NCBI GenBank assembly: GCA_007134215.1 | Contig: SLLG01000086.1 | Location: 1-34,250 of the forward strand | Source of the DNA: Opitutales bacterium | GTDB taxonomy: Bacteria > Verrucomicrobiota > Verrucomicrobiia > Opitutales > Oceanipulchritudinaceae | Direction: 5' to 3' | DNA length: 34,250 nucleotides | Shown here: piece by piece, positions 12,589 through 30,100 of the stretch | Numbering within the stretch: position 1 is the stretch's first letter | Layout: every line of letters begins with the position of its first letter | Notes under the pieces: generated by a model | Database searches by the model: none | What the model was told of the DNA's origin: nothing | What the model saw: the letters and a program-made list of their open reading frames with translations, nothing else | Program-made: the position numbers and the translations under genes

Positions 12589-13341
12589 TCAGCGGTCGAA
12601 GATGCCGCGGAGGCGTTCGCCGACACCCTCGGCGGCACCGTCGAGCGCCTCGGTCCCCCGCTCGCCGAGGTCGCGCCCGAGGTCACGGAGGTTGCCGTCC
12701 ATCCCGCCAAGGACGCCACCGGCGTTGCGCAGGACTTCGCCGAGGACGATGGCAACGATATCCTTCACGGGGATTCCGTCTTCACCGGTGCCGATGTCCT
12801 CCAGTTGGATCCGCGGAAGCGCGGCGCTGATAGACTGGCCGAGCGCTGATCCGCGCAACTGTCCGCCCTCGATGACCAACTCGCGGATAATGACGTCACG
12901 GGCGGCGCCCTCCCCTTTTTCGACGTCCTCGGGCGGCGGCGAGTAAGCCTCGATGTTGGCCATGAGTCGCCGCAGGTTGTTTCCGGCGCGGGTTTGTTCG
13001 ATGAGGATATTCGGCGCGTTGATGTGGACCTTTTCGATGACAACTGTGTCCGTCAGCAACGACCGCGGGGAAATGCGCACGTCGATGGAATCGACGGAAA
13101 TGATGTAGTCGTCGGAAAAGCCCTCGGGATTGCCCACGCGGAGGCGGTCGAGCGCACCGGAGCCGCCGAAGAGGGAAAGGCCGACGGCGTCCAACTCCAC
13201 GGTTGTGCCCGTCACCTCGGGGCCGACCGTCTCCACCGCGCGCTTGACCGCCGCATTCAGCCAACCGCCGCCGAAGACAGCGAGGACAACAACGAGAACA
13301 ATGAAAAGGCCGAGAACAAATAAAAGGAACTTTTTCAACAT
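12589..13341 (-). CDS. AsmA-like single-pass membrane protein
   Basis: A 250-residue protein that begins MLKKFLLFVLGLFIVLVVVL, a single N-terminal membrane segment with most of the chain outside the cytoplasm. The following pattern (TVELDAVGLSLFGGSGALD, RLRVGNPEGFSDDYIISVDS, RISPRSLLTDTVVIEKVHIN, APNILIEQ) is the repeating beta-strand pattern of AsmA/DUF748-type proteins, which relate to envelope lipid-transfer and assembly proteins. The C-terminal 60 residues are Gly/Asp/Arg-rich (GGMDGNLRDLGRDLGERG). The ATG at 13341 is preferred because upstream in-frame codons encode no hydrophobic start. It stands alone, divergent from the secreted-protein/receptor unit. The role is inferred from the family only; it is much shorter than classical AsmA. 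Confidence 0.72.
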   Translation of the reverse strand: MLKKFLLFVLGLFIVLVVVLAVFGGGWLNAAVKRAVETVGPEVTGTTVELDAVGLSLFGGSGALDRLRVGNPEGFSDDYIISVDSIDVRISPRSLLTDTVVIEKVHINAPNILIEQTRAGNNLRRLMANIEAYSPPPEDVEKGEGAARDVIIRELVIEGGQLRGSALGQSISAALPRIQLEDIGTGEDGIPVKDIVAIVLGEVLRNAGGVLGGMDGNLRDLGRDLGERGTEALDGAAEGVGERLRGIFDR

Positions 13342-13430
13342 GCTCCGAGTAAAACCCGCCCGCGCGCCAATGGCGAACCTAAACGGCAGGGTCCGCCGCA
13401 AATACATGGAAGCACAATCCTTGTCGGAAT

Positions 13431-13447
13431 TTGGCACAAATACGGCG
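13431..13447 (+). promoter_or_regulatory. Weak sigma-54-like site upstream of the secreted-protein unit
   Basis: TTGGCAC at 13431-13437 is a perfect -24 element. The invariant GG and GC dinucleotides have the required 10-base spacing (13433-34 and 13445-46), but the -12 element reads CGGCG rather than TTGCA. No enhancer-binding regulator is encoded nearby. A sigma-70 reading (TTGGCA, 19 bases, TGTATT at 13456-13461) is equally weak. It lies about 160 bases before the protein A start. Confidence 0.2.
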
Positions 13448-13605
13448 TGATAAGGTGTATTCATAAACGGGAAAAAACTGTATTTTACAACTAAAGACGC
13501 CCTCTAAAATCACTCCGGAACACGACGCCCTGCGTGTCTTTCAGGTAGGAAGGGCGCGTTTGTTCCGTGGAGACCAACCCCATAAATCCCCGAAAATCTC
13601 CGCCC

Positions 13606-16326
13606 ATGAAACCGCCCTTCCCCCGTTGCGCGCACCCCTCCCGAATGCTGCTGCCCCTACTTGCCGCCTTGATCACAACGGGTCTTCAGGCCGCTCCGCG
13701 TGTGCACGACTTTCAGGCGTTGAGCCTCGGCCCTGCCGACGGCCAAGGATTTTGGACCTATGCCGCGGGTGCGCCGCTGCCGCAGGACGGGGTGTTGGTC
13801 GCGCCGGGCGGTCTTTACTGGATCGGAGAGGACGACGGGATCATCACCGGAGGCACCCAATACCTGCGCACCCGCGCGGGCCTCGACGGAAGCGGGCGGA
13901 TGAGCAACTGGTTGAGCCTCGGCGGAGCCGGGACGGCCGGGCCGGTGTATGTCCGTTTTCTCCTGCGGCTGGACGAACGTCCGCCGGGCATGTTCGGGCT
14001 CGAGGAATACGAGATGTTCTTCGGCTTCGCGGCGGGTACGGGCGGTCCGTGGGACGCCTACGCCGGACTGAAGATTCCGGCCACCGGCGACAACCGCGTG
14101 GGCACGCTGGAGACGAGCGGCTCCGGCGGTGCGCATCCGAACAACAAACTGGCGCTGGGCGAAACGATGCTGGTTGTGGCCCGCTACGACGTGAACGGCG
14201 AAGGTGCGCTGACGGGTATCCAGGTTTGGGTGAATCCGGCGGCGGCGGACGCAGGATCCCCCGACCTCTCAGCAGCCTTCGACGAGCCGGGCGCCGTTCT
14301 GGCCGATTTCGAACGCTTCAACATCGCAGCCCGCAACATGCCGATGGCGCTCGACAACCTCGTGTTCGCGGAAGAATGGGAGCAAGTCGTGCCCCCGCCT
14401 TACGACGGGACGCCGCGGCCTCCGGTCGTGCTTCTTCCGCCCGCCTCGCCCGAGGGCGAGATCGGCGACATCCTCGAGCTTTCACCGCTTCTCTGGGACC
14501 AACCCGGAAATCCGGTGACCGGGTATCAATGGGTCGCAAACAACTCACTCGACATTCCCGCCCACCTCGGCGGAACGGCCGATCGCCTCGTCTTTCAAGT
14601 GTGGACTTCCACCGCAGCCCACGACCCGGTACGCCTCGCGGCGCAATCGACGGGACGATCCGGCGCGTTGATCCGGGTCCTCGTGAGCAACGACGCCGGC
14701 ACGACGGCGACACCCAATGTGCGGATCCGCGAGAGCCAGACCCCGGAACCGCCGGAGATCACGCGCCAGCCGCGCGACACTTCGTTCATGGGAGGGGATA
14801 CGGTGCGGTTGTCCGTGCAGGTGTTCAGCCTGATCGACCTCACCTACCAATGGTTCTTCAACGGTTCCCCGATCCCCGGCGCGGCGGACGACACCCTCGT
14901 TTTGTCCAACGCCAGAGAAGCCGACGTCGGGACCTACTTCGTCGAAGTGACAAACGACCTTGGCACCGAGCGCAGCGCCGACGCCGCGCTCACCTTCGAC
15001 GACGGCTCGTTCCCCGAAGACTTCCGCGTGCTCCGCCTCGAACGCGGCGCAGAACTGGGTCCGAACATTGCCGCCATCGGTCAGGCTGACGACCAGACCG
15101 GCGGCGACCTCAGCCCCCACGATCCCGGCGAAGAGCCGCCGACAACCGCCTCGATACCGGTGGAGACATTCAACACCCGCATCGGGCAAGCCTACGCCGG
15201 AGGACGCGGCGGAGTCTTCGATTTTTCCTTCGACCGCGCCACGCTCCTCTCGGGTCGTCCGCTCACTCCGGAAGAAGCGGAGGCCAACCAGATCGGCTCC
15301 ATCAAAAGCCTGCGCCTTGACCTCGGAGCGTCCGAGATCGAGGTCGTACCCATTGTCCGCGACACAGGGGTCGAAGGGTTTGCCGGACGGGACACTCTCC
15401 TGCCGCCGAACTTCCTCGTCCCTACCGGCCTTTTGCCCCGTTATCCTTCCGAAGGCGGAGACCCCAACAGCGCGACCATCTCAAGACCCAACGACGGCCC
15501 GCCCGATTTCTATCATCCAAACCACAATCTCGGCACGGCGCTGCCTTCGTCGCCGGACTTCGCCCTCGCGGCGAGCACCTACCTCAAGCTTCTCTTCGAC
15601 CCGGCGGACAAGATCGAGCTGGCGGGGTTCGTGTTCGTCAACCGCGACTATTTCCAGAGCCACCGGGAGACAAAAGCCTACCCGGACAAGCCCAACGTCC
15701 GTGCCACCGCCCGCTTCAGCAACGGCCCGGACGTCATTACGCTCATCTCCACAGGAACCACGCGGCAGCCCGGAGGCGTAGGCTACAACACGTTCTTCGG
15801 TTTTGAGAGTCCGGGCGACAGCTACTACCTCATCGATCTCGAAGTCTGGGCACTCGGCAACAATTTCCGCTGCCACTTCTCCATCGACGACCTTGCCGTC
15901 GCCGTGGCCGAAGGCACCGATCTTCCCGCCAGTCCGATGAAGCTCTGGTTGACTTCCGCCGGCGTGCCTTCCGGGCAGACGGACCCGACCTACCGCCACG
16001 GTCCGCTTTCGCTCACAAACCTCGAAGCCTATGCGATGGGAATTCCGCCCTTCGAAGGCACGGCGGCGGATCTTCCACGCATAGTGAGCGACAAAGCCGG
16101 ACCGGGACAAGTGACTCTCCACTACCGCCTCAACACCGCGGCGCAGGGCGTAGCTCTATCCATCGAACAGTCGGCGGAGCTCGAACCCGGCGGCTGGCAC
16201 CCCGCCGAAGGGCTCACGGACACCATACTTTCCGAGAGCGGCGGTATCCAGTGGCGCAAAGCTTCCTTCGGCGCGGGGGCAGGCGCTCCGCTCTTTCTCC
16301 GCGTCAAGGCGGAACTTCTGCCGTGA
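13606..16326 (+). CDS. Secreted protein A with Ig-like domain and unrecognised shared domain
   Basis: A 906-residue exported protein. The ATG at 13606 gives a signal peptide (RMLLPLLAALITTGLQA, cut before APRV). Residues 35-260 look like a beta-sandwich, possibly LamG/concanavalin-like (VYVRFLLRLDE..., PWDAYAGLKIP, NMPMALDNLVFAEEW). An Ig-like domain follows at about 383-463 (ITRQPRDTS..., YQWFFNGSPIPG, VGTYFVEVTNDLG). Residues 520-768 form a domain also present in protein B beyond the receptor gene, with matching blocks GRGGVFDF, LLFDPADKIELAGFVFVN and NTFFGF...FSIDDLAV. The last 120 residues (SLTNLEAYAMG, LSIEQSAELEPGGWHP, PLFLRVKAELL) match a C-terminal region also found in the large subtilase at 27175. 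It is first in a unit with the TonB-dependent receptor, whose start lies 24 bases on. Probable surface or periplasmic binding protein; ligand unknown. Confidence 0.85.
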   Translation: MKPPFPRCAHPSRMLLPLLAALITTGLQAAPRVHDFQALSLGPADGQGFWTYAAGAPLPQDGVLVAPGGLYWIGEDDGIITGGTQYLRTRAGLDGSGRMSNWLSLGGAGTAGPVYVRFLLRLDERPPGMFGLEEYEMFFGFAAGTGGPWDAYAGLKIPATGDNRVGTLETSGSGGAHPNNKLALGETMLVVARYDVNGEGALTGIQVWVNPAAADAGSPDLSAAFDEPGAVLADFERFNIAARNMPMALDNLVFAEEWEQVVPPPYDGTPRPPVVLLPPASPEGEIGDILELSPLLWDQPGNPVTGYQWVANNSLDIPAHLGGTADRLVFQVWTSTAAHDPVRLAAQSTGRSGALIRVLVSNDAGTTATPNVRIRESQTPEPPEITRQPRDTSFMGGDTVRLSVQVFSLIDLTYQWFFNGSPIPGAADDTLVLSNAREADVGTYFVEVTNDLGTERSADAALTFDDGSFPEDFRVLRLERGAELGPNIAAIGQADDQTGGDLSPHDPGEEPPTTASIPVETFNTRIGQAYAGGRGGVFDFSFDRATLLSGRPLTPEEAEANQIGSIKSLRLDLGASEIEVVPIVRDTGVEGFAGRDTLLPPNFLVPTGLLPRYPSEGGDPNSATISRPNDGPPDFYHPNHNLGTALPSSPDFALAASTYLKLLFDPADKIELAGFVFVNRDYFQSHRETKAYPDKPNVRATARFSNGPDVITLISTGTTRQPGGVGYNTFFGFESPGDSYYLIDLEVWALGNNFRCHFSIDDLAVAVAEGTDLPASPMKLWLTSAGVPSGQTDPTYRHGPLSLTNLEAYAMGIPPFEGTAADLPRIVSDKAGPGQVTLHYRLNTAAQGVALSIEQSAELEPGGWHPAEGLTDTILSESGGIQWRKASFGAGAGAPLFLRVKAELLP

Positions 16327-16350
16327 ACGTAAACGCCGGAATCAACAGAC

Positions 16351-19002
16351 ATGCCACAATCCCCGAAATCCCTGGCCAAGTATCTCTTTCTTGTATCCGC
16401 CGCCGTCTTCGGTTCCGCCCTTCACCCGCTCGGTGCGCAAGTCGAAGATCCGCCGGACGAAGACGTGCATATTCTCGACACACTCGTCGTGGATGCGCGG
16501 GACCAGCGCGGGTATGTCGCCTCGACTTCCATGTCGGGCACACGCCTTGCTCAGCTTGTGAGGGATCTTCCGATACCGATCGACATCATCACGGAGGACT
16601 TCATCCGCGACACCGGCGCGCTCACCGTACGCGAGGCACTGCAGTACTCGGCAGGGCTCGAGGTGGCGGAGGACTTCGCAAACCTGTCGCCCGGACAGAG
16701 CACGCTCATGAGCCAGCAGGCCGGCGAAAACCCCTCCCCGACCGGCACGTCCTTCCGGCTGCGCGGGTTCGTCACGCAGGCCGTGCTCCGCAACGGCTTC
16801 CGCCGGGAGGGCAGTTCCGACACCATCAATGTAGTGCAGGTGGATGTCGTGCGCGGCCCCAACGCCCTCCTTTACGGGATCGGCAACTTCGGCGGCGTGG
16901 TCAACTATGTCACACGCCAACCCTACGGTGAATTCGGCTCGAACCTGCGGGTGAGCGTCGGAAGCAACGCGTTTTACCGGGCGCAGGCGGACGTGACAGG
17001 ACCGATCGCCGAAGGGCTCAACTTCCGGCTGCCCTTGATGTACCAGGACCGCGAAAACTGGTTCGACCACTTCCGCGAACGCCGTCGCGGCGTCGCGCCT
17101 GTCATCACATACAAGCTCGGCTCGCGCACCCGCGTGCAGCTGGAATTCGATTATTATGAAACCGAGCGCACGCTCCCGGAGAACCCGCTCAGCCAGAACC
17201 TCCGCTCGCAGGAGACGCTCCCCTTCGTCGACGGCACGCACCATCCGGTGAACCTCGGATTCCTCGAGTATCCGCACAGGTCGTTCCGCTATGCGGGCCC
17301 TGATACCTACAACAACCAGGAGGATCTCGGAGCGCTCGCGCAGGTCACCCACGCTTTCACCGGAGAACTCGCCCTGAACATCGGGTACTACTGGAGCCGC
17401 ACACGCGTCCGCCAGCTGCACAGCGGCCTGAACCTCCGCCCCATCGCGGACATGCTCAGCCCGACACCCGCCGGAGAGATCAACCGCGCGCGGTATCCGT
17501 GGGCCTATGTCCGCGCGCACGAACGCCACGACGAATGGAGCGCAGAGGAGTTCTACGCCCTGCAATACAATTGGAACCGCTCCGAACGCCGGCGCTGGCG
17601 CAACCAGGCGCGGGCCGAACTGGTCTACAAACCGGAATTCGCCGGCCTCGGCCACACGTTTATGTCCGGCTACACTTACGACCGGTTGGAACAGTCCATC
17701 CTGCCGTGGAGCCTGAAAGACCTCACCCGCGAAACGACGTCGCTGCAGACAAACGATTTCACCGGGCTGCAGGGTTCACGGGCACGCTACCAGTCGATCT
17801 ATAATTACGCGCCCATCCGCTTCAGCCTCTTCCCCGGCGAGGAGTTCATGCTCACAGCCGATCCCGTGAAGAGCTTTATCGGCGAAGCGCACGGGGCCTA
17901 CCTCATCCACCAGACAGCTTTCTTCAATGAACGCCTGCGCACAGTCGGGGGCCTCCGCTACGACCGCTTCCAAATCCTCCGCGAGACGCGCTACAACGCG
18001 GCGGAGTCCAACGCAGCCGTCGGCGATCTCAGCCTCATTGCCCGCCGGAAACCCTTCAAGACCCGCCAGAATCCCACCTCCCAATGGAATTACTCCCTTG
18101 GCGTTTCCCTCACCGCGACCGACGCGCTCTCGCTCTTCGCCCTCACGGCGAGCGCGCTGGATCCGGAAACGACCGGCGGCCAGCGCACTCCCGAGGGATT
18201 CGTCGCGGATCCGCAGAGCGGCCAAAGCTATGAACTCGGGATCAAGGCCGATTGGCTGGAAGGAAAGATTTCCGGCTCCTTCTCCCTCTACCGCATCAAT
18301 CGTGAGAATGTGGCCGTTTCTCCCCATCCGGGGACCCGTGCCGACTCCGGGGAGCGCATCCTTCCGCCCTCCGGTATCCACAACCCCGGATCGACCGCCT
18401 ACGATCCCGACTGGACCGCCTCCGGGCGGGACGCCCCCGGCAGCAGCGCCCTGCGCGAGGACCGTTCGGAAGGGATCGACACACAAATCTTCCTTATCGG
18501 CCTCCTGCCTAATTTTGAAACGATTCTCAGCTTCAGCTACAACCGCTACTCGATCCGCGACGCCGTCTTTTTCCTCTACGAGGGAAAACAGGACGGTGAG
18601 TTTCTCTTCAAACGCGTGAAGGCGCGCGCATTCAATGAGGCAACAGGCACGAGCCTTCCGTGGGACGACTCCCGCCTCAACAACGACACACCGAAATACT
18701 CTTTCCGCGTCTGGAACAAATATACCTTCCGCGACAACGCACTCGACGGTTTCAACATCGCGCTCGGCGTGCGCTGGTCAGACCGTCGCGAAGCCTCGTT
18801 CAGCTTTGCCGACAACCCCTCCTACAAGATCATCCCCGACCGGACTTCCGTCGATCTCGCACTCGCCTACGCGCTCAATCTGCGTGATCTCGAAATCGAC
18901 CTGCGCGTCAATATCTACAATCTGCTCGACGACGACAAAGTCTACGGTTACGCCCACACCGAGCCGCGCCACTGGCGCATGTCCGCCTCGGTCCGGTTCT
19001 GA
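16351..19002 (+). CDS. TonB-dependent outer-membrane receptor
   Basis: An 883-residue TonB-dependent receptor. A signal peptide (KYLFLVSAAVFGSALHPLGA, cut before QVED) is followed by a TonB box (ILDTLVVDARD, 41-51). The plug domain has GTRLAQLVRDLPIPIDIITE, TVREALQYSAG, VDVVRGPNALLYG and GGVVNYVTRQP. A 22-strand barrel follows, rich in aromatic strand ends and closing with HWRMSASVRF, whose terminal Phe is the barrel-insertion signal. The family takes up scarce nutrients such as Fe-siderophores, cobalamin or glycans using TonB-ExbBD energy. The plug is of the siderophore/FhuE-like type common in Opitutia, but no iron regulator, siderophore or CAZyme gene lies nearby, so the substrate is unknown. 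It lies between secreted proteins A and B with gaps of 24 and 34 bases, implying one transcript. Confidence 0.95.
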   Translation: MPQSPKSLAKYLFLVSAAVFGSALHPLGAQVEDPPDEDVHILDTLVVDARDQRGYVASTSMSGTRLAQLVRDLPIPIDIITEDFIRDTGALTVREALQYSAGLEVAEDFANLSPGQSTLMSQQAGENPSPTGTSFRLRGFVTQAVLRNGFRREGSSDTINVVQVDVVRGPNALLYGIGNFGGVVNYVTRQPYGEFGSNLRVSVGSNAFYRAQADVTGPIAEGLNFRLPLMYQDRENWFDHFRERRRGVAPVITYKLGSRTRVQLEFDYYETERTLPENPLSQNLRSQETLPFVDGTHHPVNLGFLEYPHRSFRYAGPDTYNNQEDLGALAQVTHAFTGELALNIGYYWSRTRVRQLHSGLNLRPIADMLSPTPAGEINRARYPWAYVRAHERHDEWSAEEFYALQYNWNRSERRRWRNQARAELVYKPEFAGLGHTFMSGYTYDRLEQSILPWSLKDLTRETTSLQTNDFTGLQGSRARYQSIYNYAPIRFSLFPGEEFMLTADPVKSFIGEAHGAYLIHQTAFFNERLRTVGGLRYDRFQILRETRYNAAESNAAVGDLSLIARRKPFKTRQNPTSQWNYSLGVSLTATDALSLFALTASALDPETTGGQRTPEGFVADPQSGQSYELGIKADWLEGKISGSFSLYRINRENVAVSPHPGTRADSGERILPPSGIHNPGSTAYDPDWTASGRDAPGSSALREDRSEGIDTQIFLIGLLPNFETILSFSYNRYSIRDAVFFLYEGKQDGEFLFKRVKARAFNEATGTSLPWDDSRLNNDTPKYSFRVWNKYTFRDNALDGFNIALGVRWSDRREASFSFADNPSYKIIPDRTSVDLALAYALNLRDLEIDLRVNIYNLLDDDKVYGYAHTEPRHWRMSASVRF

Positions 19003-19036
19003 GCCACAACCTTCCCCATCCCCTTCTTCCGCAGCC

Positions 19037-22000
19037 ATGCTCCCTAGACTGAAGCCCGCCTTCCTTCCCGCCCTGCTCCTCCCCGCGGTGCTCGCCGGGC
19101 AGTCCGCCGATACATCGAACTTTGTGCGGGAGTCCGCCACCTTCCTCACGACCGGAAGCATCGCGGCGGGAAACAATCCCATCAACATCTTCGCCACCGA
19201 GGGCGGTGAGTTTGCAGCTGGTATTCCCTTCGACGAGTTCATGGAACTCTTTACCGCAGCGCGCGCCGAGGGCCGGGGCGGGGTCATCGATTTCGACAAT
19301 CCGGTATACGGTGACCCTGTCCTCGACTACGACCGCACGGGCGTGCGGGCATTCGTCGAAGGGCAGGTCCGCGGACGCAGTTTTGACTCGCAGGCCGAGG
19401 CGCAGGCCGCCATCGACAAGGCGCGGGCGCTCGCCTATGAAAGCGGCATTGTCGACCGGTCGGCCCGCGGCCCGGTGATCAACCGCCTCGACCCGTCACT
19501 CGACGACCCGTCACCCGGCGCTCCGGGGGAGGAAATCCTCTTCGACAAGACCGTCGGCCTCTTCGGTCACGCAGGCGAGCGCCGGCTCGTCCTCCGGCGC
19601 GGGCCGCGGCATTACATGGAGGGCGATCTCGCCTCACGCGAAGCACCCGCCTCGGAGAACCTGCAGACGGTCAACGACAACTATTTTACCCATGTTGCAC
19701 GTTCCACCTACGGTGACGGCGGCCGGCCCGGACCGCTCCCCGTTTCTCTGCCCTTTTCCCGAAACGGCGGCATCACCGACCTGTTGATCGATCCGCGCGA
19801 CAATGTGACCGCCGTCGGTTTCGTCCTTCTCAGCGCGGGAAATTTTCAATACTGGCAGGGGCTCGGCGCCTTACCCGACAACACGGACAACAAGCGGGTC
19901 CACGTTGAGTTTTCGGATGGTTCGACGGATCTGCTCACATCGACCACGCTGGACTCCAGCGGCGGCGGCGACACGTTTTTCGGCATACGCGCCCCCGAAG
20001 GCACAAGCATTGTCCGCCTCAAAATGCGCGCGATCGGCCGCAACTGGCGCACGAGGACGTTCCTCGACGACTTTGCATTTGTCACGGAACCCTCCGCGCC
20101 CTTCGTGGCGGGCGCGCGTGAGGTCCGCGGCTCGGCGGGCGCCGCCTTCTACCACCGTCTGCTCACCGCGCAGGAGCCCGACGAAGTCACACTCGACGGT
20201 CTCCCCCCCGGCCTCGCCTTCGCCGCGGACACCGGACTCATCTTCGGAACTCCCGTCGAGCCCGGCGACTATGCCGTCACCGTCACGCTGACAAATGAAG
20301 TGGGGACGACCGAAGATACGGTCCACTTCCACATCGGACCATCTGTGCAAGAAGAAAGGGTCCCCCGGATTCTGAGCGTTCCGGAGATCGCGGTCACCGT
20401 CGGCCGCGAACTCACCCCCGCGCAGGTCGTCACATCTCTCGACGGCACAGTGCTGCCCGGCGAACTCAACTACTTCACCCTCGTCTACCGCATCGGCGAC
20501 GACGGCACGCGAACGCTTCTCCCGCTCGAAGCAACGGGCCTGGGCATTGGCGCGGGCGTGTTCTCGGGTACTCCAGACCAACCCGCGCAAGTCGGCACCT
20601 ACGATATCGAAGTCTTCGTCACAAACGAGAGCGGCGGCGACCGCGCCACCACGGTGCTCAACATTTTTCCCGTCGTTCCGGGACCGAATTTCGCGGGTGA
20701 CGAGGCGACCGATCTCATGTGGCGCGATAACGCCTCCGGCCGCGTCTACACCCTCAACGCACGGGGCAACTACCTTGATGGCGACGGGATGTTCAGCGTG
20801 CGTTCCCATTGGATCCCGCACGACACCGGACTCACCGTCGAAGCCACGACGTTTCTCGGCACAGGCGATCTCGACGGAAACAACCACACCGATATCGTTG
20901 CCCGCACGCCCGGCACAGGACATATCGATTTCCGTTTTTTCCATGCCGGGGATACTGCCCGGGCACACCGTGTCGATGAATTGAGCGGCGGCTGGGAGGT
21001 CCTCATGGCGGGCGACATGCGGGGCGACGGCCACCTGAGCCTGTTGTGGCACCGCCCGGCGACGCACGACTACGATATCTGGCACATCGTCGACCGCGAC
21101 CTGCGGTGGTCGGGGATTCTCTTCGCGGACGGTATCGCGCGCGAGTTCGTTCTCCACGGTGATTTCGACGGCGACGGCACACGCGACCTCCTCTTCCGGC
21201 TGTCGCCGGGGGTCTACGAGTTGGTGAACATACGCATCCTCACGGGAACGGGCGTCGTCGATTATGTATCCGAGAGCTTCGCTATGCCCTCTTCCGAATG
21301 GAAGCCGCACATGGCCGCCGACCTCACGGGTGACGGATCCGACGATTTGTTGTGGAAAAACCACTACTCCGGGGAGGTGACAGCGTGGATCATGTCGGGG
21401 GTGACCGTACCGACGGACGCCCGTCCACCCGCCGCGCAAAACAATGAGAACGACTCGCCGGGCACTGCCCTGCCGGGCGTGACGCTGCTGCCCTTCGGCA
21501 CTCGCTTCGAGGTTCTTGCCGCGCTCGACGTCGACGAGGATCAACGCAACGACCTGATCCTCCAGCACCGCGAAACCCGCAATCTGCACCTGATGCTCAT
21601 GGACGGGCCCGCGCCCAAGGCGCCTCTGGTCACCCTCGACGCCGACGGAGAACACCTCGAGGTTGTCGCGGCGGGCGACTACAACGCCGACAAACGGGAA
21701 GATCTCCTCGTCCGCAACACCGCGACCGGCGAGGTCGAGTTTTTCCTCATGGGGCCCTCGGGCATTGCCGGGAGGCATACTTTAGGCGTCTTCGGCGACG
21801 GAGTCGAAATGATCACACCCCGCGTTCTATCCCGCGACCTCACGCCCCCGCCGGGACGTGATGCGCCGGTGCCGCCGTGGACTCAAGCCACGCCGCTCGG
21901 CGGGCGTTTCTTCCACCTCGACGGCTTCGGCACCTTCTACGATCCCCCCGGAGGCGGATGGATTTACCACGACGATCACGGCGTCATCGGTGTCGCCGGG

Positions 22001-22204
22001 GACGACCCGGAGGGCTTTTGGCTCATCGATTTCGACCTCGGTTGGTTCTGGACCAACACCAGTGTCTATCCGTGGATGTACTATCCCAACCCCCTCCAAA
22101 ACACATGGATCTACTTCGCACGCGGCACGCGGAATCCCCGCTGGCTCTACTTCAACGCTTTCGGCGAGTGGATCACCGACGAGGAACTACTTGAGTTTCT
22201 ATAA
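19037..22204 (+). CDS. Secreted protein B: shared domain, putative Ig domain, FG-GAP/VCBS repeats, Trp-rich C-terminus
   Basis: A 1055-residue exported protein; the ATG at 19037 opens a signal peptide (FLPALLLPAVLAGQSA). Residues 60-350 correspond to the shared domain of protein A (RGGVIDF, DLLIDPRDNVTAVGFVLLS, DTFFGI, TFLDDFAFV). Residues 355-430 are a putative Ig domain of He_PIG type (VTLDGLPPGLAFAADTGLIF, GTPVEPGDYAVTV). Residues 435-940 hold FG-GAP/VCBS-type repeats: FLGTGDLDGNNHTDIVART, HGDFDGDGTRDLLFRL, AADLTGDGSDDLLWKN and AAGDYNADKREDLLVRN, probably a Ca-binding propeller. The last 100 residues are a Trp/Tyr-rich module (GGGWIYHDDHG, FDLGWFWTNTSVYPWMYYP, RWLYFNAFGEW) also found at 26221. 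It follows the receptor by 34 bases and precedes the subtilase by 22. A cell-surface or secreted binding role is inferred. Confidence 0.88.
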   Translation: MLPRLKPAFLPALLLPAVLAGQSADTSNFVRESATFLTTGSIAAGNNPINIFATEGGEFAAGIPFDEFMELFTAARAEGRGGVIDFDNPVYGDPVLDYDRTGVRAFVEGQVRGRSFDSQAEAQAAIDKARALAYESGIVDRSARGPVINRLDPSLDDPSPGAPGEEILFDKTVGLFGHAGERRLVLRRGPRHYMEGDLASREAPASENLQTVNDNYFTHVARSTYGDGGRPGPLPVSLPFSRNGGITDLLIDPRDNVTAVGFVLLSAGNFQYWQGLGALPDNTDNKRVHVEFSDGSTDLLTSTTLDSSGGGDTFFGIRAPEGTSIVRLKMRAIGRNWRTRTFLDDFAFVTEPSAPFVAGAREVRGSAGAAFYHRLLTAQEPDEVTLDGLPPGLAFAADTGLIFGTPVEPGDYAVTVTLTNEVGTTEDTVHFHIGPSVQEERVPRILSVPEIAVTVGRELTPAQVVTSLDGTVLPGELNYFTLVYRIGDDGTRTLLPLEATGLGIGAGVFSGTPDQPAQVGTYDIEVFVTNESGGDRATTVLNIFPVVPGPNFAGDEATDLMWRDNASGRVYTLNARGNYLDGDGMFSVRSHWIPHDTGLTVEATTFLGTGDLDGNNHTDIVARTPGTGHIDFRFFHAGDTARAHRVDELSGGWEVLMAGDMRGDGHLSLLWHRPATHDYDIWHIVDRDLRWSGILFADGIAREFVLHGDFDGDGTRDLLFRLSPGVYELVNIRILTGTGVVDYVSESFAMPSSEWKPHMAADLTGDGSDDLLWKNHYSGEVTAWIMSGVTVPTDARPPAAQNNENDSPGTALPGVTLLPFGTRFEVLAALDVDEDQRNDLILQHRETRNLHLMLMDGPAPKAPLVTLDADGEHLEVVAAGDYNADKREDLLVRNTATGEVEFFLMGPSGIAGRHTLGVFGDGVEMITPRVLSRDLTPPPGRDAPVPPWTQATPLGGRFFHLDGFGTFYDPPGGGWIYHDDHGVIGVAGDDPEGFWLIDFDLGWFWTNTSVYPWMYYPNPLQNTWIYFARGTRNPRWLYFNAFGEWITDEELLEFL

Positions 22205-22226
22205 GGGGTCGGTTGTTCTCCGCGGC

Positions 22227-24089
22227 ATGAAGTTTCGTCAATTCCCATGCTTGTTTCTCGCCTTCGTTTGCCTCCCCGCAGCCGCCCAGGCGAACGCCGA
22301 CAACAGCGAACGCATTGTCATCGAACGCCTGGACGACCTGCCGCGCCTCACCTATGCGGCGGAGATGCCGCTGGAGGACTGGATGGAGGACCGCGGCGCG
22401 CTCCTCGACCTTGCGCGGCGGGTGGGGGCCGACATGCGCGAACGCCTCGAACGCTTCGACCTCCGCGACGCCTCCACCCTGCGCAGCACGCACAACACGC
22501 TGCGCACAATCGCGTGGCTGCGGGGAGACGGCGACGAGGCCCTGCGGCACATTGAGGCAATCCGTGAACTGCAGGAAAAGCCCGGTGACCGCCTGACGAA
22601 CGGACTACTCCTCGAAGCGATCATCAAGGCGGAGCGGCGAGGCGAGGCCTTTGCCGATGTCTACGCCGCCAAACTCGCCGACCTGCCGTGGTCCGTCGTC
22701 AACGAGAGCATCCTCGACCTGCGCGCCGGGCTCCAGACGATGGGCGAAGGGCTCTACCGCGGGGCACTGCGCTCGCAGATGCAGCCGGTTGTCGACCAAT
22801 CCGGCGAACTCAGCCTCGGCATCGCCACCTCCCTAATCAGCTTCCGCTACATGTTCGACGCCATACTGCCGCGCCGCGACGCCGCCGTGAACGTCCTCAC
22901 CGAATACATCGAGGCAAACCGCGAGGACAAGCCCGACATCTGGGCGGACCGCTCCGTCGACCTCTCCGGACGCGACGGCCTCACGCCCGTCATCGTCGCG
23001 GTGTGGGACAGCGGATTCGACCCCGGGGTCTTCGAGTCCATGGGCAAGCTCTGGCGCAACGCGGACGAGACGCGCGACGGCGCCGACACCTCGGGCAACG
23101 GCTGGATCGACGACGTCCACGGAATCGGCTGGGACAAACACTACCGCCGCGAGGCCGGCGATCTCCTGCCCCTCTCCGACGAAGAGCGCGCCCGCTATCC
23201 GGAAAGTGTCGCCCTGACGAAGGGCTTCACCGATTTGCAGGCGGGCGTCGACAGCCCCGAGGCGCAGCTCGTGCGCGAACGCATGTCCGGCCTCGAACCG
23301 GAAGCCTACGAAGAATTCGTCGAAAACCTCAGCCTCTTCGGCTCCTACGTGCACGGGACCCACGTCGCCGGCATCGCGGCGGAGGGCAACCCCGCCATCC
23401 GCCTCCTCAACGCCCGCATCACCTTCGGGCACAAGCTCCTCCCCGAAGAGCCGACCCTTGAACTCGCCGTGCGCTCCGCCCGCGCCACGCGCGACGCCGT
23501 CGCCTACTTCCGCAAGCAAGGCGTACGCGTCGTCAACATGAGCTGGGGCGGCACCCAGGCGGGCTACGAATACGCCCTCCAGGCCAACGGCGTGGGCGAC
23601 GATGCCGAGATGCGCGCGGAGATGGCGCGGGTGCTCTTCGGCATCGGCTACCGCGCACTCGTCGAGGCCATGGAGGAGGCCGACGACATTCTCTTTATCC
23701 CCGCCGCCGGCAACAGCGACGACGATGTGGAATTCACCCAGGTCATTCCCTCCTCCATCGACCTGCCCAACGTCCTCGTCGTCGGCGCCGTCGACCAAGC
23801 GGGCGACGAAACGGGCTTCACCAGCCACGGGCGCAATGTCGCCGTGCATGCCAACGGCCACGCCGTCGAGAGCTGGTTCCCCGGCGGCGAGCGCGTCGCC
23901 ATCTCCGGCACCTCCATGTCCGCGCCCAACGTCGCCAACCTCGCCGCCAAGCTACTCGCCGTCGACCCCTCGCTCACGCCCGTCGAGGTCCGCGAGATCA
24001 TCGTCTCCACCGCCGAACGCACCGAAGACGGCCGCCGCAACCTAATCCACCCACGCCGCGCCATGGAAGCCCTCGAAGCACGGCGCTGA
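22227..24089 (+). CDS. Secreted subtilisin-like serine protease (S8) with N-terminal helical extension
   Basis: A 620-residue S8 peptidase. The ATG at 22227 gives a signal peptide (FPCLFLAFVCLPAAAQANA). The catalytic triad is visible: Asp261 (VIVAVWDSGFDPG), His376 (VHGTHVAGIA) and Ser563 (ISGTSMSAPNVA), with the oxyanion Asn496 in IPAAGNSDDD. Residues 30-245 are a helical region with charged repeats (RERLERFDLRDASTLRSTHN) that resembles no standard I9 propeptide. About 115 residues separate Asp from His, long for the family, including DGADTSGNGWIDDVHGIGWD, a possible Ca site. It is the last gene of the 13606-24089 unit, 22 bases after protein B. It may process or degrade surface proteins feeding the receptor; this is inferred from context only. 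Confidence 0.93.
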   Translation: MKFRQFPCLFLAFVCLPAAAQANADNSERIVIERLDDLPRLTYAAEMPLEDWMEDRGALLDLARRVGADMRERLERFDLRDASTLRSTHNTLRTIAWLRGDGDEALRHIEAIRELQEKPGDRLTNGLLLEAIIKAERRGEAFADVYAAKLADLPWSVVNESILDLRAGLQTMGEGLYRGALRSQMQPVVDQSGELSLGIATSLISFRYMFDAILPRRDAAVNVLTEYIEANREDKPDIWADRSVDLSGRDGLTPVIVAVWDSGFDPGVFESMGKLWRNADETRDGADTSGNGWIDDVHGIGWDKHYRREAGDLLPLSDEERARYPESVALTKGFTDLQAGVDSPEAQLVRERMSGLEPEAYEEFVENLSLFGSYVHGTHVAGIAAEGNPAIRLLNARITFGHKLLPEEPTLELAVRSARATRDAVAYFRKQGVRVVNMSWGGTQAGYEYALQANGVGDDAEMRAEMARVLFGIGYRALVEAMEEADDILFIPAAGNSDDDVEFTQVIPSSIDLPNVLVVGAVDQAGDETGFTSHGRNVAVHANGHAVESWFPGGERVAISGTSMSAPNVANLAAKLLAVDPSLTPVEVREIIVSTAERTEDGRRNLIHPRRAMEALEARR

Positions 24090-24220: not shown

Positions 24221-25033
24221 CTAAAGCCTCACGGCTTCGGCTACGCTGTCTCCGCTCCGCTCCCGCGCGGCGGCGACCAAGGCGTGGAAGAGGCGTTGCT
24301 GGCGGCGCGACTGCGGGAGGTATTCGGGGTGCCACTGGATGCCGACGGCGAAGGGATGCTCCGGGATCTCGATGCCCTGCGCGATGCCGTTTTTTTCACG
24401 TGCGACAACACGCACACCTTTGCCCAGCCGGTTTACGGCCTGGTTGTGCAGGCTGTTCACCAGCGCCTCCTCCGTGCCAAGGACGGCGGCGAGCCGGCTG
24501 TCCGGTTCGAGCAGGACCGGCTTGCGTGGAAACACGGTATCCACTTTCGGTGACTCCGTGTAAAAGGTCCCGATATTCTGGTGCAGGTCGCCTCCGCGCA
24601 CGACATTCATCAGTTGCGCGCCGCGGCAGATACCAAGGACCGGGATCCCGTGCGTGATGGCGTCGTCGAGCAGCCGCCGCTCCAAAGCGTCGCGGCCCTC
24701 GTCGACGCCCGCGCGGTGGCCGAGGCTGAAGAGTTTACGCGAGAAAAAGATGGCCAGCCCCCAGAAGACGACGGTCCACCGCGAGCGGCGCCGCTCCCTG
24801 CGCGCCGCCTCGCGCAGGGCCTCCATCGTCACGCCGCCGTAGAGTTTCGGATCGACGTCTGCCCCGCCTCCGATGACCACGGCGTCAAAGGCCGGCACGC
24901 GGTGTACCTTCGCCGGTCTCGCCCGCAGCGCCCGTCCGCCCGCGCGCCAGACCGCGAGCCGCGCGAAGAACCACGCGATGTATCCGCCACGGTCCGGCCC
25001 CGTTACCAACACCCTCGGCCGCCGTCCCCTCAT
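24221..25033 (-). CDS. Glutamine amidotransferase class I / gamma-glutamyl-hydrolase-like peptidase C26
   Basis: A 270-residue class-I glutamine amidotransferase-like protein of the C26 group (PuuD type), which hydrolyses gamma-glutamyl amide bonds. Visible: VIGGGADVDPKLYGG, the nucleophile elbow GIPVLGICRGAQLMNV with the catalytic Cys, HNQAVNRLG, and AVGIQWHPEYL with the catalytic His and Glu. A hydrophobic insertion (WTVVFWGLAIFFSRKLFSLG) between the first two blocks is unusual. The ATG at 25033 overlaps the TGA of the upstream amidoligase gene by four bases (ATGA), indicating translational coupling. Paired genes for a GS-like amidoligase and a C26 peptidase are a described neighbourhood (Iyer, Aravind and colleagues), thought to build and trim gamma-glutamyl-like amide adducts. 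The true substrate is unknown. Confidence 0.92.
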   Translation of the reverse strand: MRGRRPRVLVTGPDRGGYIAWFFARLAVWRAGGRALRARPAKVHRVPAFDAVVIGGGADVDPKLYGGVTMEALREAARRERRRSRWTVVFWGLAIFFSRKLFSLGHRAGVDEGRDALERRLLDDAITHGIPVLGICRGAQLMNVVRGGDLHQNIGTFYTESPKVDTVFPRKPVLLEPDSRLAAVLGTEEALVNSLHNQAVNRLGKGVRVVAREKNGIAQGIEIPEHPFAVGIQWHPEYLPQSRRQQRLFHALVAAARERSGDSVAEAVRL

Positions 25034-26043
25034 GCAAACCACTCCCGGATCTTCGCCGCGATCCGCCCGACGACAACCTGAGCGGGGTGGTCCAGCCAAT
25101 GCAGCCACGACTCCGCGAGGTGCGCCAGCCGCTCCTTGTCGGCCGCCACACGCTCGACCACCACCCATCGGTTCCACTCCGAGGCGAGCGTCCACGCCGG
25201 GTCATTGAGTGAGCAGTTGGGCAAGCGGTAGTGGTAGGCGGGCCGCGGCGACACGAGCTTGGGCGCAAAGTCTTCGAAAACAAGTTCTTCACGCAGGTAC
25301 GCGAAGAGCGGGAGCATATCGAGCGGGCGGTTCCGCGTTGGGTTGTACCGCACGTAGTCCCGGATGAGCGTTTCCAGATCCGGCGCGTAGTCCGGGGCAA
25401 GGACGAGGCGCGCGTAGTCGCACGGAAACGGATCAATGAAAGGCGTCAGGCGGCGCGAAATATTAACATCGAGCTTTTCCTTCAACCACTCGTAGAGGAT
25501 TAAGAACGCTCGCAATACATCGCGGATTTCATCGACCTCAAACGAAGGCACCCCGGGGTTCAGATGTGTCCCGAAGGCATGGAAGATAGAGGCGCGCGTG
25601 TCCTTGGCTGCGGAGGCCGAGAGCGCGGCGCGCAGTCGCTCGATATCCGGCAACCGGCTGACCGGCACGGGCGGCACCACAATCTCCATGGGGACAATGT
25701 GCCGAGCCGAGCGCACGACGAAATCCTCCACCGAAGAAAACGTCTCCGCCTTTTCCACTCCGAGTTCGGCGAGGTAACGCTCCAGCTTACCCTCCTTGAG
25801 GAGCGAGGCGTCCAGCTCGATGACGAAGTCGCCGAACTCCGCGAGCGAGGTGCCGCGCACCTTCCCGCTCCACACGTCCTTCCTTTCCAGCCGCCCGCCG
25901 TAGACACCCGCGATGATCTCCGCGATAGCCTCCATGTCCAAACCGGCGAATTCCAGCTCCACCCCCACGACACGCTCGCCCCCGCCGGGCGCGGCAGTCT
26001 GCGGCGGCTTCCAGAAAACGGGGGTCGGCGGACTCAAAACCAT
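25030..26043 (-). CDS. Glutamine-synthetase-like amidoligase
   Basis: A 337-residue protein of the amidoligase family (Amidoligase_2 type), ATP-dependent enzymes related to glutamine synthetase that join amines or peptides to carboxylates. The opening VVGVELEFAGLD carries the Glu residues that ligate metal in this fold. Later blocks VIELDASLLKEG, VPMEIVVPPV and SIFHAFGTHLNPG correspond to the further metal/nucleotide-binding strands of the family, and NPTRNRPLDMLPLFAYL and FEDFAPKLVSPRPAYHYRLP are typical of this subgroup. The ATG at 26043 is chosen because sequence before it is basic and unconserved in look; the in-frame alternative at 26190 would add 49 residues. It is first of a two-gene operon with the C26 peptidase. 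Confidence 0.88.
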   Translation of the reverse strand: MVLSPPTPVFWKPPQTAAPGGGERVVGVELEFAGLDMEAIAEIIAGVYGGRLERKDVWSGKVRGTSLAEFGDFVIELDASLLKEGKLERYLAELGVEKAETFSSVEDFVVRSARHIVPMEIVVPPVPVSRLPDIERLRAALSASAAKDTRASIFHAFGTHLNPGVPSFEVDEIRDVLRAFLILYEWLKEKLDVNISRRLTPFIDPFPCDYARLVLAPDYAPDLETLIRDYVRYNPTRNRPLDMLPLFAYLREELVFEDFAPKLVSPRPAYHYRLPNCSLNDPAWTLASEWNRWVVVERVAADKERLAHLAESWLHWLDHPAQVVVGRIAAKIREWFA

Positions 26044-26220
26044 TGGATCTAGACCGTAGCACGGACGGACGGAAGATGGCAACTTTTGGCGTGGACGAAT
26101 CACGAGCCCAAACAAAGAACTCTTTGACAATATTACAAAAGCAGCAAGCCTAAGCGCCATACGCCCGCGGCCTTCCATGGACTCGAACACTTCAAATCTT
26201 CGTCAATCCCAGGCATCACA

Positions 26221-26934
26221 ATGTTTTCTCACTGGATGCGCCATCTCCGCCTGTTCCTGCGCTTCCTGGTCCTAACGGCAGCAGTCGGGGTTTCATCGGC
26301 ACCTGCAAACCCCGCCGCCTCCAAAACGTCCAATGCCCCATGGTCCGGTGCATATGTCGACTTCGGCGACTGGATCTTTCACGCCCGCCACGGCTGGCAA
26401 TACTGGCCCGCGCAATCTACAGATGAGCGTTACTTCTACGATTCCGGCATCGGTGTCTGGGGATGGAGCACTCCCGATGCATGGCCTGCGGTCTACTTCT
26501 TCCATGAACCCATGGCAGGGTGGTACATCGTCGACAAAACGCAAACCAGCCAAGGACGGCTCTTCTTTCATCCGCGGACGGGTTCGCTTTTTTCGGAAGA
26601 ATTTCTGAAGTCAACCCGAAGGTTCAATGAACAAAAGGTCCCGCCCCGTCCCATCTACCAACCCGCTCCACATTATCCGCCTGAGCTGCTGCACGCGGGG
26701 ATCATCGGCGAGGTCACTTTGGAATTCGTCGTGACGTATGAAGGCACTGTTCGGCACAAAGAGATTGTCGAGGCGTCTCACGACGGATTCATCGACCCGG
26801 TCTTAGAGGCCGCAAGCCAATGGCTGTTTCTTCCTGGAGAGGTCGACGGGGCTCCCGTCAATACACGCGTCCGCATCCGTATTCCTTTCCGCATTGCCCC
26901 TGAACCCGAGCCGCCGCCGGACCCGCCGAGCTAA
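26221..26934 (+). CDS. Exported protein with Trp-rich module and TonB C-terminal domain
   Basis: A 237-residue protein. A hydrophobic start (LRLFLRFLVLTAAVGVSSA) serves as signal peptide or anchor. Residues 44-130 are a Trp/Tyr/Phe-rich module (GDWIFHARHGWQYWP, YFYDSGIGVWGWSTPDAWPA, GRLFFHPRTG) matching the C-terminal 100 residues of secreted protein B. Residues 145-228 are a TonB-C domain (PIYQPAPHYPPELLHAGIIG, EVTLEFVVTYEGTV, TRVRIRIPFR), which in energy transducers contacts the TonB box of receptors. The Pro-rich periplasm-spanning spacer of classical TonB is missing, so true energy transduction is doubtful. It stands alone; divergent to the amidoligase operon and followed by a REP-like element. 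The TonB-C domain closely resembles that of the frameshifted ankyrin gene. Confidence 0.85.
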   Translation: MFSHWMRHLRLFLRFLVLTAAVGVSSAPANPAASKTSNAPWSGAYVDFGDWIFHARHGWQYWPAQSTDERYFYDSGIGVWGWSTPDAWPAVYFFHEPMAGWYIVDKTQTSQGRLFFHPRTGSLFSEEFLKSTRRFNEQKVPPRPIYQPAPHYPPELLHAGIIGEVTLEFVVTYEGTVRHKEIVEASHDGFIDPVLEAASQWLFLPGEVDGAPVNTRVRIRIPFRIAPEPEPPPDPPS

Positions 26935-27042: not shown

Positions 27043-27174
27043 CTGGCAATTGCAGTTTTGAAATCACCACCGCAGATTCGTTACCTCCGCCCGTGAGGGA
27101 AATGTCAATTCCGCAGGCGGATTGCGCGGGGCGTTGACGGGGTTACTGTGGCACCTTCGGATTTCCCCGTGTTC

Positions 27175-30100
27175 ATGAAACGCCCCGCCGTAAACGCCCT
27201 TATTCCGGCCGCCGTCCTTGTCTTGGCGGTTTTCGCCCTGCTGTTTTTCCGACCGGCGGAAGACATTGCGGACAACGCCGCAGCGCCCACGGCACCAGCG
27301 CAGGCTATAATCAACAACGAAGCCGCCGAAGAATCGGCGGAGGAAGATGTATCCACGCTTACCGCGCCCGACGAGGCGGAACCCATTGCTCCGCCGCCCG
27401 CCCCGCCCACGCCCCGCCCCGGCGCTTCCATCGCGGACATTCTTGAAGAGACGGGCGACCTGCGCGACCCGGAGGCGCGGGCGCGCGTCGTCGAAGCCAT
27501 CCGGGAATTGGAAGACGCCCGGCTCAAAGAAGCCCGCGAGCGCGCCGAAGCGCTGGGCCTGCCCACCCGCATTGAACTGCCCGACGGGACCGTCAAAGAA
27601 ATCTACGGCTTCGAGGGCGACACTCCCCTTTACCGCATCACACACAACGTGAACGCCGCGATCTCCGCTGCCGTCGACCGCATCCGCGACGATCCCGCCG
27701 CACCGCTGCGCGGGGAGGGCGTCACCATCGGAATGTGGGACGGCGGCACGGCCCGCGCCTCCCACCAGGAGTTCGGCGGCCGCATGCGGCTCATGGACGA
27801 TGCCTCCGCCATCACCCACGCCACTCACGTGGGCGGTACGCTCGCCGCCGCCGGGGTCGACTCCCGCGCCCTCGGCATGGCACCCTTCGCCACGGTCGAT
27901 TCGTATGACTGGAACAACGACAAGTCGCAGATGACCGCGCGCGCCGCCGCCGCCCCCGGCGAGGAAGGCAAGCTCTACATTTCCAACCACAGCTACGGAT
28001 TTGTCGCCGGGTGGTTGCGCACGGGCCGGTCCTCCCCCCGGTTCGAATGGCACGGCGGCAGCGGCTCCGTGGAAACGCGCTTCGGTGCCTACCACGCGCA
28101 AGCACGCGATTCCGATGCCATCGCCCACGCCGCGCCCTACTACCTCATGTTCCGCAGCTCGGGCAACGACCGCACCGAGAATCCCACCGAGGGCGACAGC
28201 GTGGCCCTCTCCCCCGGCGGCACGGTGGTCAGCTACGACAGCGCCGTCCATCCGGCGGGCGACGGCATCTACCGGGGCGGCTACGACACGATCAGCTTCG
28301 ACGCCGTCGCAAAAAACGTCATCACCGTCGGCGCCGTCGACGACGCCGTCGCCGCCGGGCAGCGCGACCTTTCCCGCGCCGACATTGCGCCCTTCTCCTC
28401 TTGGGGCCCGACCGACGACGGACGCATCAAGCCCGATATCGTCGCCAACGGGGTCACCCTCGTTTCCGCTTCCGCCGGTTCGGACACCGGCTACGCCACG
28501 CTCAGCGGCACAAGTATGTCCGCCCCCAACGCGGCGGGCGCGGCCGCTCTCCTCATCGAACTCTACGGCACGCTTTTCCCCGGCGGGGCCATGCGCTCGA
28601 GCACCCTCAGGGGCCTCCTCATCCACACCGCCGACGACCTCGGCAACCCCGGCCCCAACTACCGCTTCGGCTGGGGGCTGCTCAACGCCGAAGCCGCCGC
28701 CGGCCTCATCCGCGATTTCGCCGCCGAACCCGCCACCCGCCGTATGACGGAAGACACCCTCACCACCGGCGACCCCACGCACACCCACTCATTTGTGTGG
28801 GACGGCGAGTCACCCCTGCGCGCGACCCTTGCATGGACCGATCCCGCGGGCGCGGCCACCACCACCCACGACCTCCGCTCCCCGCGCCTGCGCAACAACC
28901 TGCACCTCCGCGTCGAGGGGCCGGACGGCGAAGTATTTCATCCCTACGTCATGCCTTTTGTCGGCACCTGGACGCAGGAATCCATGTCCTTGCCCGCCAC
29001 GACAGGCGTGAACAACACCGACAACGTCAATCAAGTCTATATCGCCGCACCGCCCTCGCCCGGCGTCTACACTGCCGTCGTCTCCCACACCGGCACCCTC
29101 GCGAACAACCAGCAAGTCTACTCTTTGCTGATCTCCGGTTCCTCCGCGGAGGAACCGCCCCCGCCCGCGCTGCGCATTGTCTCTGTATCTCCCGCGTCGG
29201 CCCTCGCCGGCGAAACCGTGAGCCTCCAGATCGAGGGCACCGGGTTCACCGCCGGCACCTCCGTGCGCCTCACCCGCCCCGGAATGTCTGACATTCCGGG
29301 AACAGACTACGAAGCCCTCGGCGCGGGCGCGCGCGCACGCTTTGACCTCGACGGAGCGGTCGGCGGGCCGTGGGACCTCGTCGCCGCGCGCGACGACAGT
29401 GAAACCGACACGCTCGCCGCCGCTTTCTCCGTCGTCGACGCGGTGTGGAGCGAAAACTTCGACGGCGAAGCCGAAGGATGGACCACGCAAACACCCGTCG
29501 GCGCCAACACATGGTCCCTTACCACCGCCCGTAGCCATTCGCCCGATACATCGTACTTTGCCCCCGGCGTGGCACAACGCTCGCTCGCCGTCCTTGTTTC
29601 TCCGGACGTCGGAATCCCCGCCGACGCCACGGACCTCCAGCTCCGCTTCTGGCAGCGGCGGTCGCTCCACTCCAACCGCGAGGGCGGCACCATGGAACTG
29701 AGCGTCAACGGCGGGCCGTGGACCGACATCGCCGATCCGGCCTCCGGCGCCTCGTTTTTGAGCAATGGATACAATGGAACCGTTTCGGATATCGGACGCC
29801 CCGCCGACCGAAACCCGCTCGACGGCAAGGCGGCATGGACCGGCAGCACCTCCGCATTTGTTGAAACCATCGTCGGCCTGCACGACACGGACACCTTCGC
29901 CGGCGCTACCGTCCGCTTCCGCTGGAGCCTCGGGACGAGCAGTCGGTCGAGCGGCGAGGGCTGGTGGATCGACAGCCTCGCCCTCCTCGGCGACAGCGAC
30001 ATGACGGGATCGCCGCCGGTCATCACCGCCGGTCCGGATGCAACCGTCTCTTTTTTCGATACGGAAACCGAACGCGGCGTCATCGAGGGCGTCTCCACCG

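Follow-up and report, generated by a model that had tools for sequence, protein, structure and literature searches.

A lineage-restricted unit of a TonB-dependent receptor and two domain-sharing partner proteins in Opitutales, with a separable subtilase neighbor

A TonB-dependent receptor gene that is flanked on both sides by genes for related secreted proteins, and followed by a protease gene, raises the questions of which of these genes belong together and what the receptor imports. The locus lies in a window (the whole stretch of DNA analyzed, 34,250 nucleotides, 64.8% GC) that corresponds to contig C100 of genome G000, which spans 4.4 Mb and is 97% complete. Its relatives are Opitutales metagenome genomes including Super_Day6_Bin.11, CSSed162cmA_196 and BM_Day8_Bin.4; going by these names and two published accounts (PMC13274419, PMC8880816), the bacterium is probably a soda-lake haloalkaliphile and may belong to the family Verruconatronumaceae.

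The four genes are all on the plus strand, separated by 24, 34 and 22 nt. They encode the secreted-looking protein A (13606..16326; 906 aa), the receptor (16351..19002; 883 aa, with a Plug domain at residues 70–183), the secreted-looking protein B (19037..22204; 1055 aa) and an S8 subtilase (22227..24089; 620 aa). These open reading frames were verified at the coordinates and strand given for them in a preliminary description of the locus. That description also assigned signal peptides to all four products, in agreement with the Sec-type signal-like hydrophobic stretch that can be seen by eye at every N-terminus; a lipobox, also judged by eye, is present in none. An AsmA/DUF748-like gene (12589..13464, minus strand) forms a conserved upstream flank. 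A search for promoter-like sites found none, and the number of terminators is about that of shuffled controls. Downstream, at 24221–26190 on the minus strand, an Amidoligase_2 gene overlaps a Peptidase_C26/glutamine amidotransferase gene, a pair that is kept at contig C63 of the related genome G002.

The four-gene arrangement exceeds chance, as its order and spacing recur at G002:C63, where the gaps are 25, 35 and 23 nt, the proteins are 83–91% identical to those of the window, and synteny is complete including both flanks. The dN/dS values between the two loci (A, 0.18; receptor, 0.07; B, 0.11; S8, 0.13) indicate that all four genes are maintained. The protease is a clear Peptidase_S8 member (1.9e-32) with the Asp/His/Ser triad and D261, H376, N496 and S563 in place. 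One reading of this arrangement, put forward in the preliminary description, is peptide or protein uptake, in which the subtilase would digest extracellular protein and the receptor, together with A and B, would import the peptides. The B–S8 gap of 22–23 nt kept in G000 and G002, the intact active-site residues under purifying selection, and a second S8 protease in the window at 27148–31269 all fit such a role; the wider comparison of receptor loci does not.

We read eight loci of the receptor clade: the window, G002:C63, G000:C179, G002:C142, G001:C259+C222, G006:C114, G005:C39 and PLM2 L033. B is the next gene after the receptor at all eight, so its homologues do co-occur with this clade. 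A lies upstream of the receptor at six, which belong to the window genus and one sister genus; it is absent from the two more distant loci, G005:C39 and PLM2.Bin11, where only receptor and B are found, and A is thus not indispensable. At G000:C179, G002:C142 and G001:C259+C222, the last a paralogous-type unit divided between two contigs, the order is regulator, GH26, A, X, receptor, B, and at G006:C114 it is GH26, X, A, receptor, B. Protein X (L021:9938-11791 in the paralogous unit) has about 617 residues, no Pfam match and two halves that look similar by eye; it occurs in four units and is absent from that of the window. G006 also carries a second copy of A (L042:270-3176, contig C99), which lies close to the end of its contig and is interrupted by a TAA stop.

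The subtilase has a different distribution. It lies beside the clade unit at two of the eight loci and is missing from the other six, and orthologues with 52–63% identity occur away from A, receptor and B in G006 (on a separate and short contig of 3.5 kb), G007, G012 and G019. In the congener G001, at L063, the AsmA-like gene directly adjoins S8 with no A-receptor-B in between. The sequence before S8 there encodes WIIEKELLEFL, a homologue of the end of B in the window (WITDEELLEFL-stop), and is followed by the same leader; the corresponding window segment, comprising the final codons of B and the S8 leader, is 22166..22226 on the plus strand. What is left of B is thus a stretch of ∼35 nt matching its 3′ end, ahead of an intact S8 (L063:5450-5640, contig G001:C450). 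Since this C-terminal motif is kept in B paralogues, the simplest reading of the junction is that an ancestor had B beside S8 and that G001 deleted A-receptor-B while keeping the protease, although, the contig being from a metagenome bin, this could reflect an assembly error; against such an error, the junction lies within a single contig. G001 still carries the paralogous unit. The deletion scar and the orthologues elsewhere rule out S8 as an obligate fourth member; it is a separable passenger with an independent history, syntenic with the core and dispensable for it, although it may be co-transcribed with it.

The proposed A-receptor-B-S8 order therefore holds in one other genome, and what is conserved more widely is A-receptor-B without the protease, a three-gene unit rather than a four-gene unit. 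This unit is lineage-restricted. Of 384 genomes sampled from the class, only three have a match to A at E ≤ 1e-30, and likewise for B, and a pattern scan for B across 84,980 species genomes returned six loci, all within the window's own group. The five unit-bearing genomes are close relatives, and the co-occurrence of their genes does not represent five independent cases.

The feature that sets the unit apart is the relationship between A and B. Residues 662–860 of A align with residues 249–440 of B (BLASTP of the A–B pair, E = 4e-12), and a domain profile finds both proteins, bearing out the earlier observation of a common domain; by sequence and profile comparison it is encoded at 15010..15909 in A and 19115..20104 in B, both on the plus strand. 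In A, a signal-like N-terminus is followed by a lectin/LamG-like beta-sandwich at residues ∼30–270 (a weak fold match), an Ig-like region, an Ig_3 domain (382–450), the shared domain (∼469–768), and a C-terminal domain that recurs in other secreted proteins encoded by the genome. B consists of a signal-like N-terminus, the shared domain (27–356), a He_PIG Ig domain (386–429), FG-GAP repeats (∼550–900) and a W-rich C-terminal domain (940–1055). This W-rich segment of ∼115 aa (21854–22201, plus strand) has a counterpart (E 3e-9) within the N-terminal half of a small TonB_C protein that looks secreted and is encoded 4 kb downstream of B (26221–26934, plus strand); L028 and L029 encode large secreted proteins that contain it as well.

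Ig, FG-GAP, He_PIG and W-rich domains are found in surface adhesins, and one of the solved-structure matches of B is an adhesin. A and B could accordingly be adhesins or matrix components by which the cell attaches to the surface of algae or cyanobacteria, with the receptor merely co-expressed. We consider this improbable, in that B adjoins one receptor clade at eight loci whose flanks have diverged, and the shared domain is distributed like the receptor. In five related genomes with ∼109 Plug domains there are 14 copies of the shared domain scoring above 200 bits, and 13 of these are inside A/receptor/B units, the fourteenth being at a contig end; A and B are, as had been proposed, dedicated neighbors of this receptor clade.

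Fold models of low to middling confidence gave generic matches. The N-terminal domain of A (pLDDT 68) weakly matches lectin-type folds (best E 2.5e-5, TM ∼0.4), and the shared domain (pLDDT 56) is a generic sandwich (Foldseek best E 1.4e-3; VIA Z at most 5.9) whose matches include several xylan- and mannan-binding, CBM-like modules together with unrelated proteins. We do not claim the shared domain as a carbohydrate-binding module, as unrelated adhesins and toxins score equally. These modeled folds are consistent with carbohydrate binding, without demonstrating it. The idea of a SusD-like partner concealed in A or B was dropped, there being no Pfam or NCBIfam match.

The receptor is a general TonB-dependent receptor by its Plug domain (PF07715, 46.5 bits against a cut-off of 23.9) and its matches to solved TonB receptors. 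It is not SusC-like, scoring 10.9 bits against SusC/RagA (TIGR04056; cut-off 368). No SusD/RagB homologue lies next to it, and A, B and S8 have no SusD match in Pfam; PF07980 is also undetected in G001, G002, G005 and G006. The sole PF07980 match of the window bin falls on a contig of 3.1 kb (L074, G000:C111) with a GC content of 38.6%, which is probably contamination. The unit is thus without SusD, as first described.

The best profile match of the receptor is to siderophore receptors (TIGR01783, E 3.5e-41), and the solved enantio-pyochelin receptor matches at 3e-35, so it might instead import a siderophore or xenosiderophore, with A and B being co-opted surface proteins that have another role. 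Like TIGR01783 members, the window receptor shows similarity in the plug and N-terminal barrel, the region covered by most of its solved-structure matches; unlike them, it scores below the curated cut-off (141.6 against 223.5 bits) and has no recognized iron-uptake genes nearby. No Fur-box-like site occurs in the window at up to three mismatches, and Fur regulation was set aside on this basis. Two large partner proteins, and the genes described below that accompany the paralogous unit, are also a misfit for iron-chelate uptake, which we regard as unlikely.

Clues to the substrate come from the window genome itself, in which the nearest relatives of A, the receptor and B all lie in one second unit, on contig C179 (60%, 62% and 54% identity, respectively). 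This paralogous unit has no S8. It has a divergent regulator combining a LacI-type sugar-binding domain with an AraC domain, for which the best solved match is E. coli XylR (1e-39), and a 313-aa GH26 enzyme with best solved matches to AlXyn26A (5e-65) and the beta-1,3-xylanase XYL4 (3e-23). The catalytic Glu motifs YECNGPWNGY and MIGECTPR align to AlXyn26A, and by sequence the enzyme qualifies as a GH26 xylanase. AlXyn26A cuts mixed-linkage and beta-1,3 xylo-oligosaccharides (PMC12706835). No signal peptide is visible on the GH26 of the paralogous unit, suggesting that cleavage follows the import of whole oligosaccharides.

Among 37 relatives, GH26 is present in exactly the five that have receptor-B; in G005 it is on a different contig from receptor-B, and none was detected in the PLM2 genome, where receptor-B is present. 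No xylosidase was seen in the stretch around the paralogous unit. The window genome encodes xylA, but xylose isomerase is found across the family and was dropped as discriminating evidence. The paralogous unit thus combines a carbohydrate-active enzyme with a sugar regulator; beside the window copy no glycosidase or sugar regulator was recognized. Upstream of the two units we found no common motif that was convincing beyond shuffled controls.

With xylanase-like and XylR-like genes rather than a protease accompanying the paralogous unit, neither the protease as a unit member nor a peptide or protein substrate, as first suggested, is borne out, and we now consider peptide uptake quite unlikely; it is more likely that the window unit imports sugars. 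On balance we favor A-receptor-B as a SusD-independent TonB uptake module for oligosaccharides, with S8 outside it. The best reading of the sequences is that the substrate of the paralogue is of xylan type and that the window copy takes up a glycan, possibly a xylo-oligosaccharide or related oligosaccharide, the latter being deduced from the ∼54–62% identity between the units; the ligand may have changed after duplication.

In such a module A and B would be exported and then presumably reside at the cell surface or be held at the outer membrane. There they would bind oligosaccharide through their beta-sandwich and lectin-like domains and, probably through physical contact, pass it to the TonB-powered receptor, the role that SusD has in Bacteroidota. 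In the case of the paralogous unit the oligosaccharides would enter before being cut. More tentatively, A and B may represent a new type of TonB-receptor partner: a related pair of surface proteins, not lipoproteins, that takes the place of SusD in one family of Verrucomicrobiota and allows xylan-type oligosaccharides to enter intact and be cleaved in the cytoplasm.

Like the SusCD systems of Bacteroidota, the unit joins a TonB receptor to dedicated, adjoining surface-type proteins, and its paralogue adds a glycosidase and a sugar regulator. The window unit departs from SusCD in that its receptor is not SusC-like, A and B are neither SusD homologues nor lipoproteins, and two related partners flank the receptor. 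TonB carbohydrate loci without SusD include the CUT loci of Xanthomonas and Caulobacter; to our knowledge none flanked by a pair of related large secreted proteins has been described. Shared with such loci is a TonB receptor near sugar-degrading genes and a sugar regulator with no SusD, although the window copy differs in having no adjoining carbohydrate-active enzyme. PUL-like TonB clusters without SusD have been described in Verrucomicrobiota (PMC11980603). We found no description in the open-licence papers searched of a domain-sharing pair on both sides of a TonB receptor, and these paired partners are the distinctive part of the unit. The GH26 and XylR-like regulator of the paralogous unit resemble a described GH26/XylR xylan system, with the difference that the described strain has an ABC transporter where here there is a TonB unit. 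The published survey lists Bacteroidota, Pseudomonadota, Actinomycetota and Thermotogota, and Verrucomicrobiota are not among them (PMC12125979).

How polysaccharide fragments cross the outer membrane of Verrucomicrobiota in the absence of SusCD has been explicitly posed as an open question (PMC8857213, PMC11980603). The unit supplies named candidate partner proteins for such SusCD-free uptake. These proteins, two paralogous units of which one has xylan genes and the other lacks them, and a natural deletion that spared the protease bring the question within reach of testing. With the paralogous unit, Verrucomicrobiota, a phylum without an entry in that survey, would also gain a GH26/XylR-type xylan locus.
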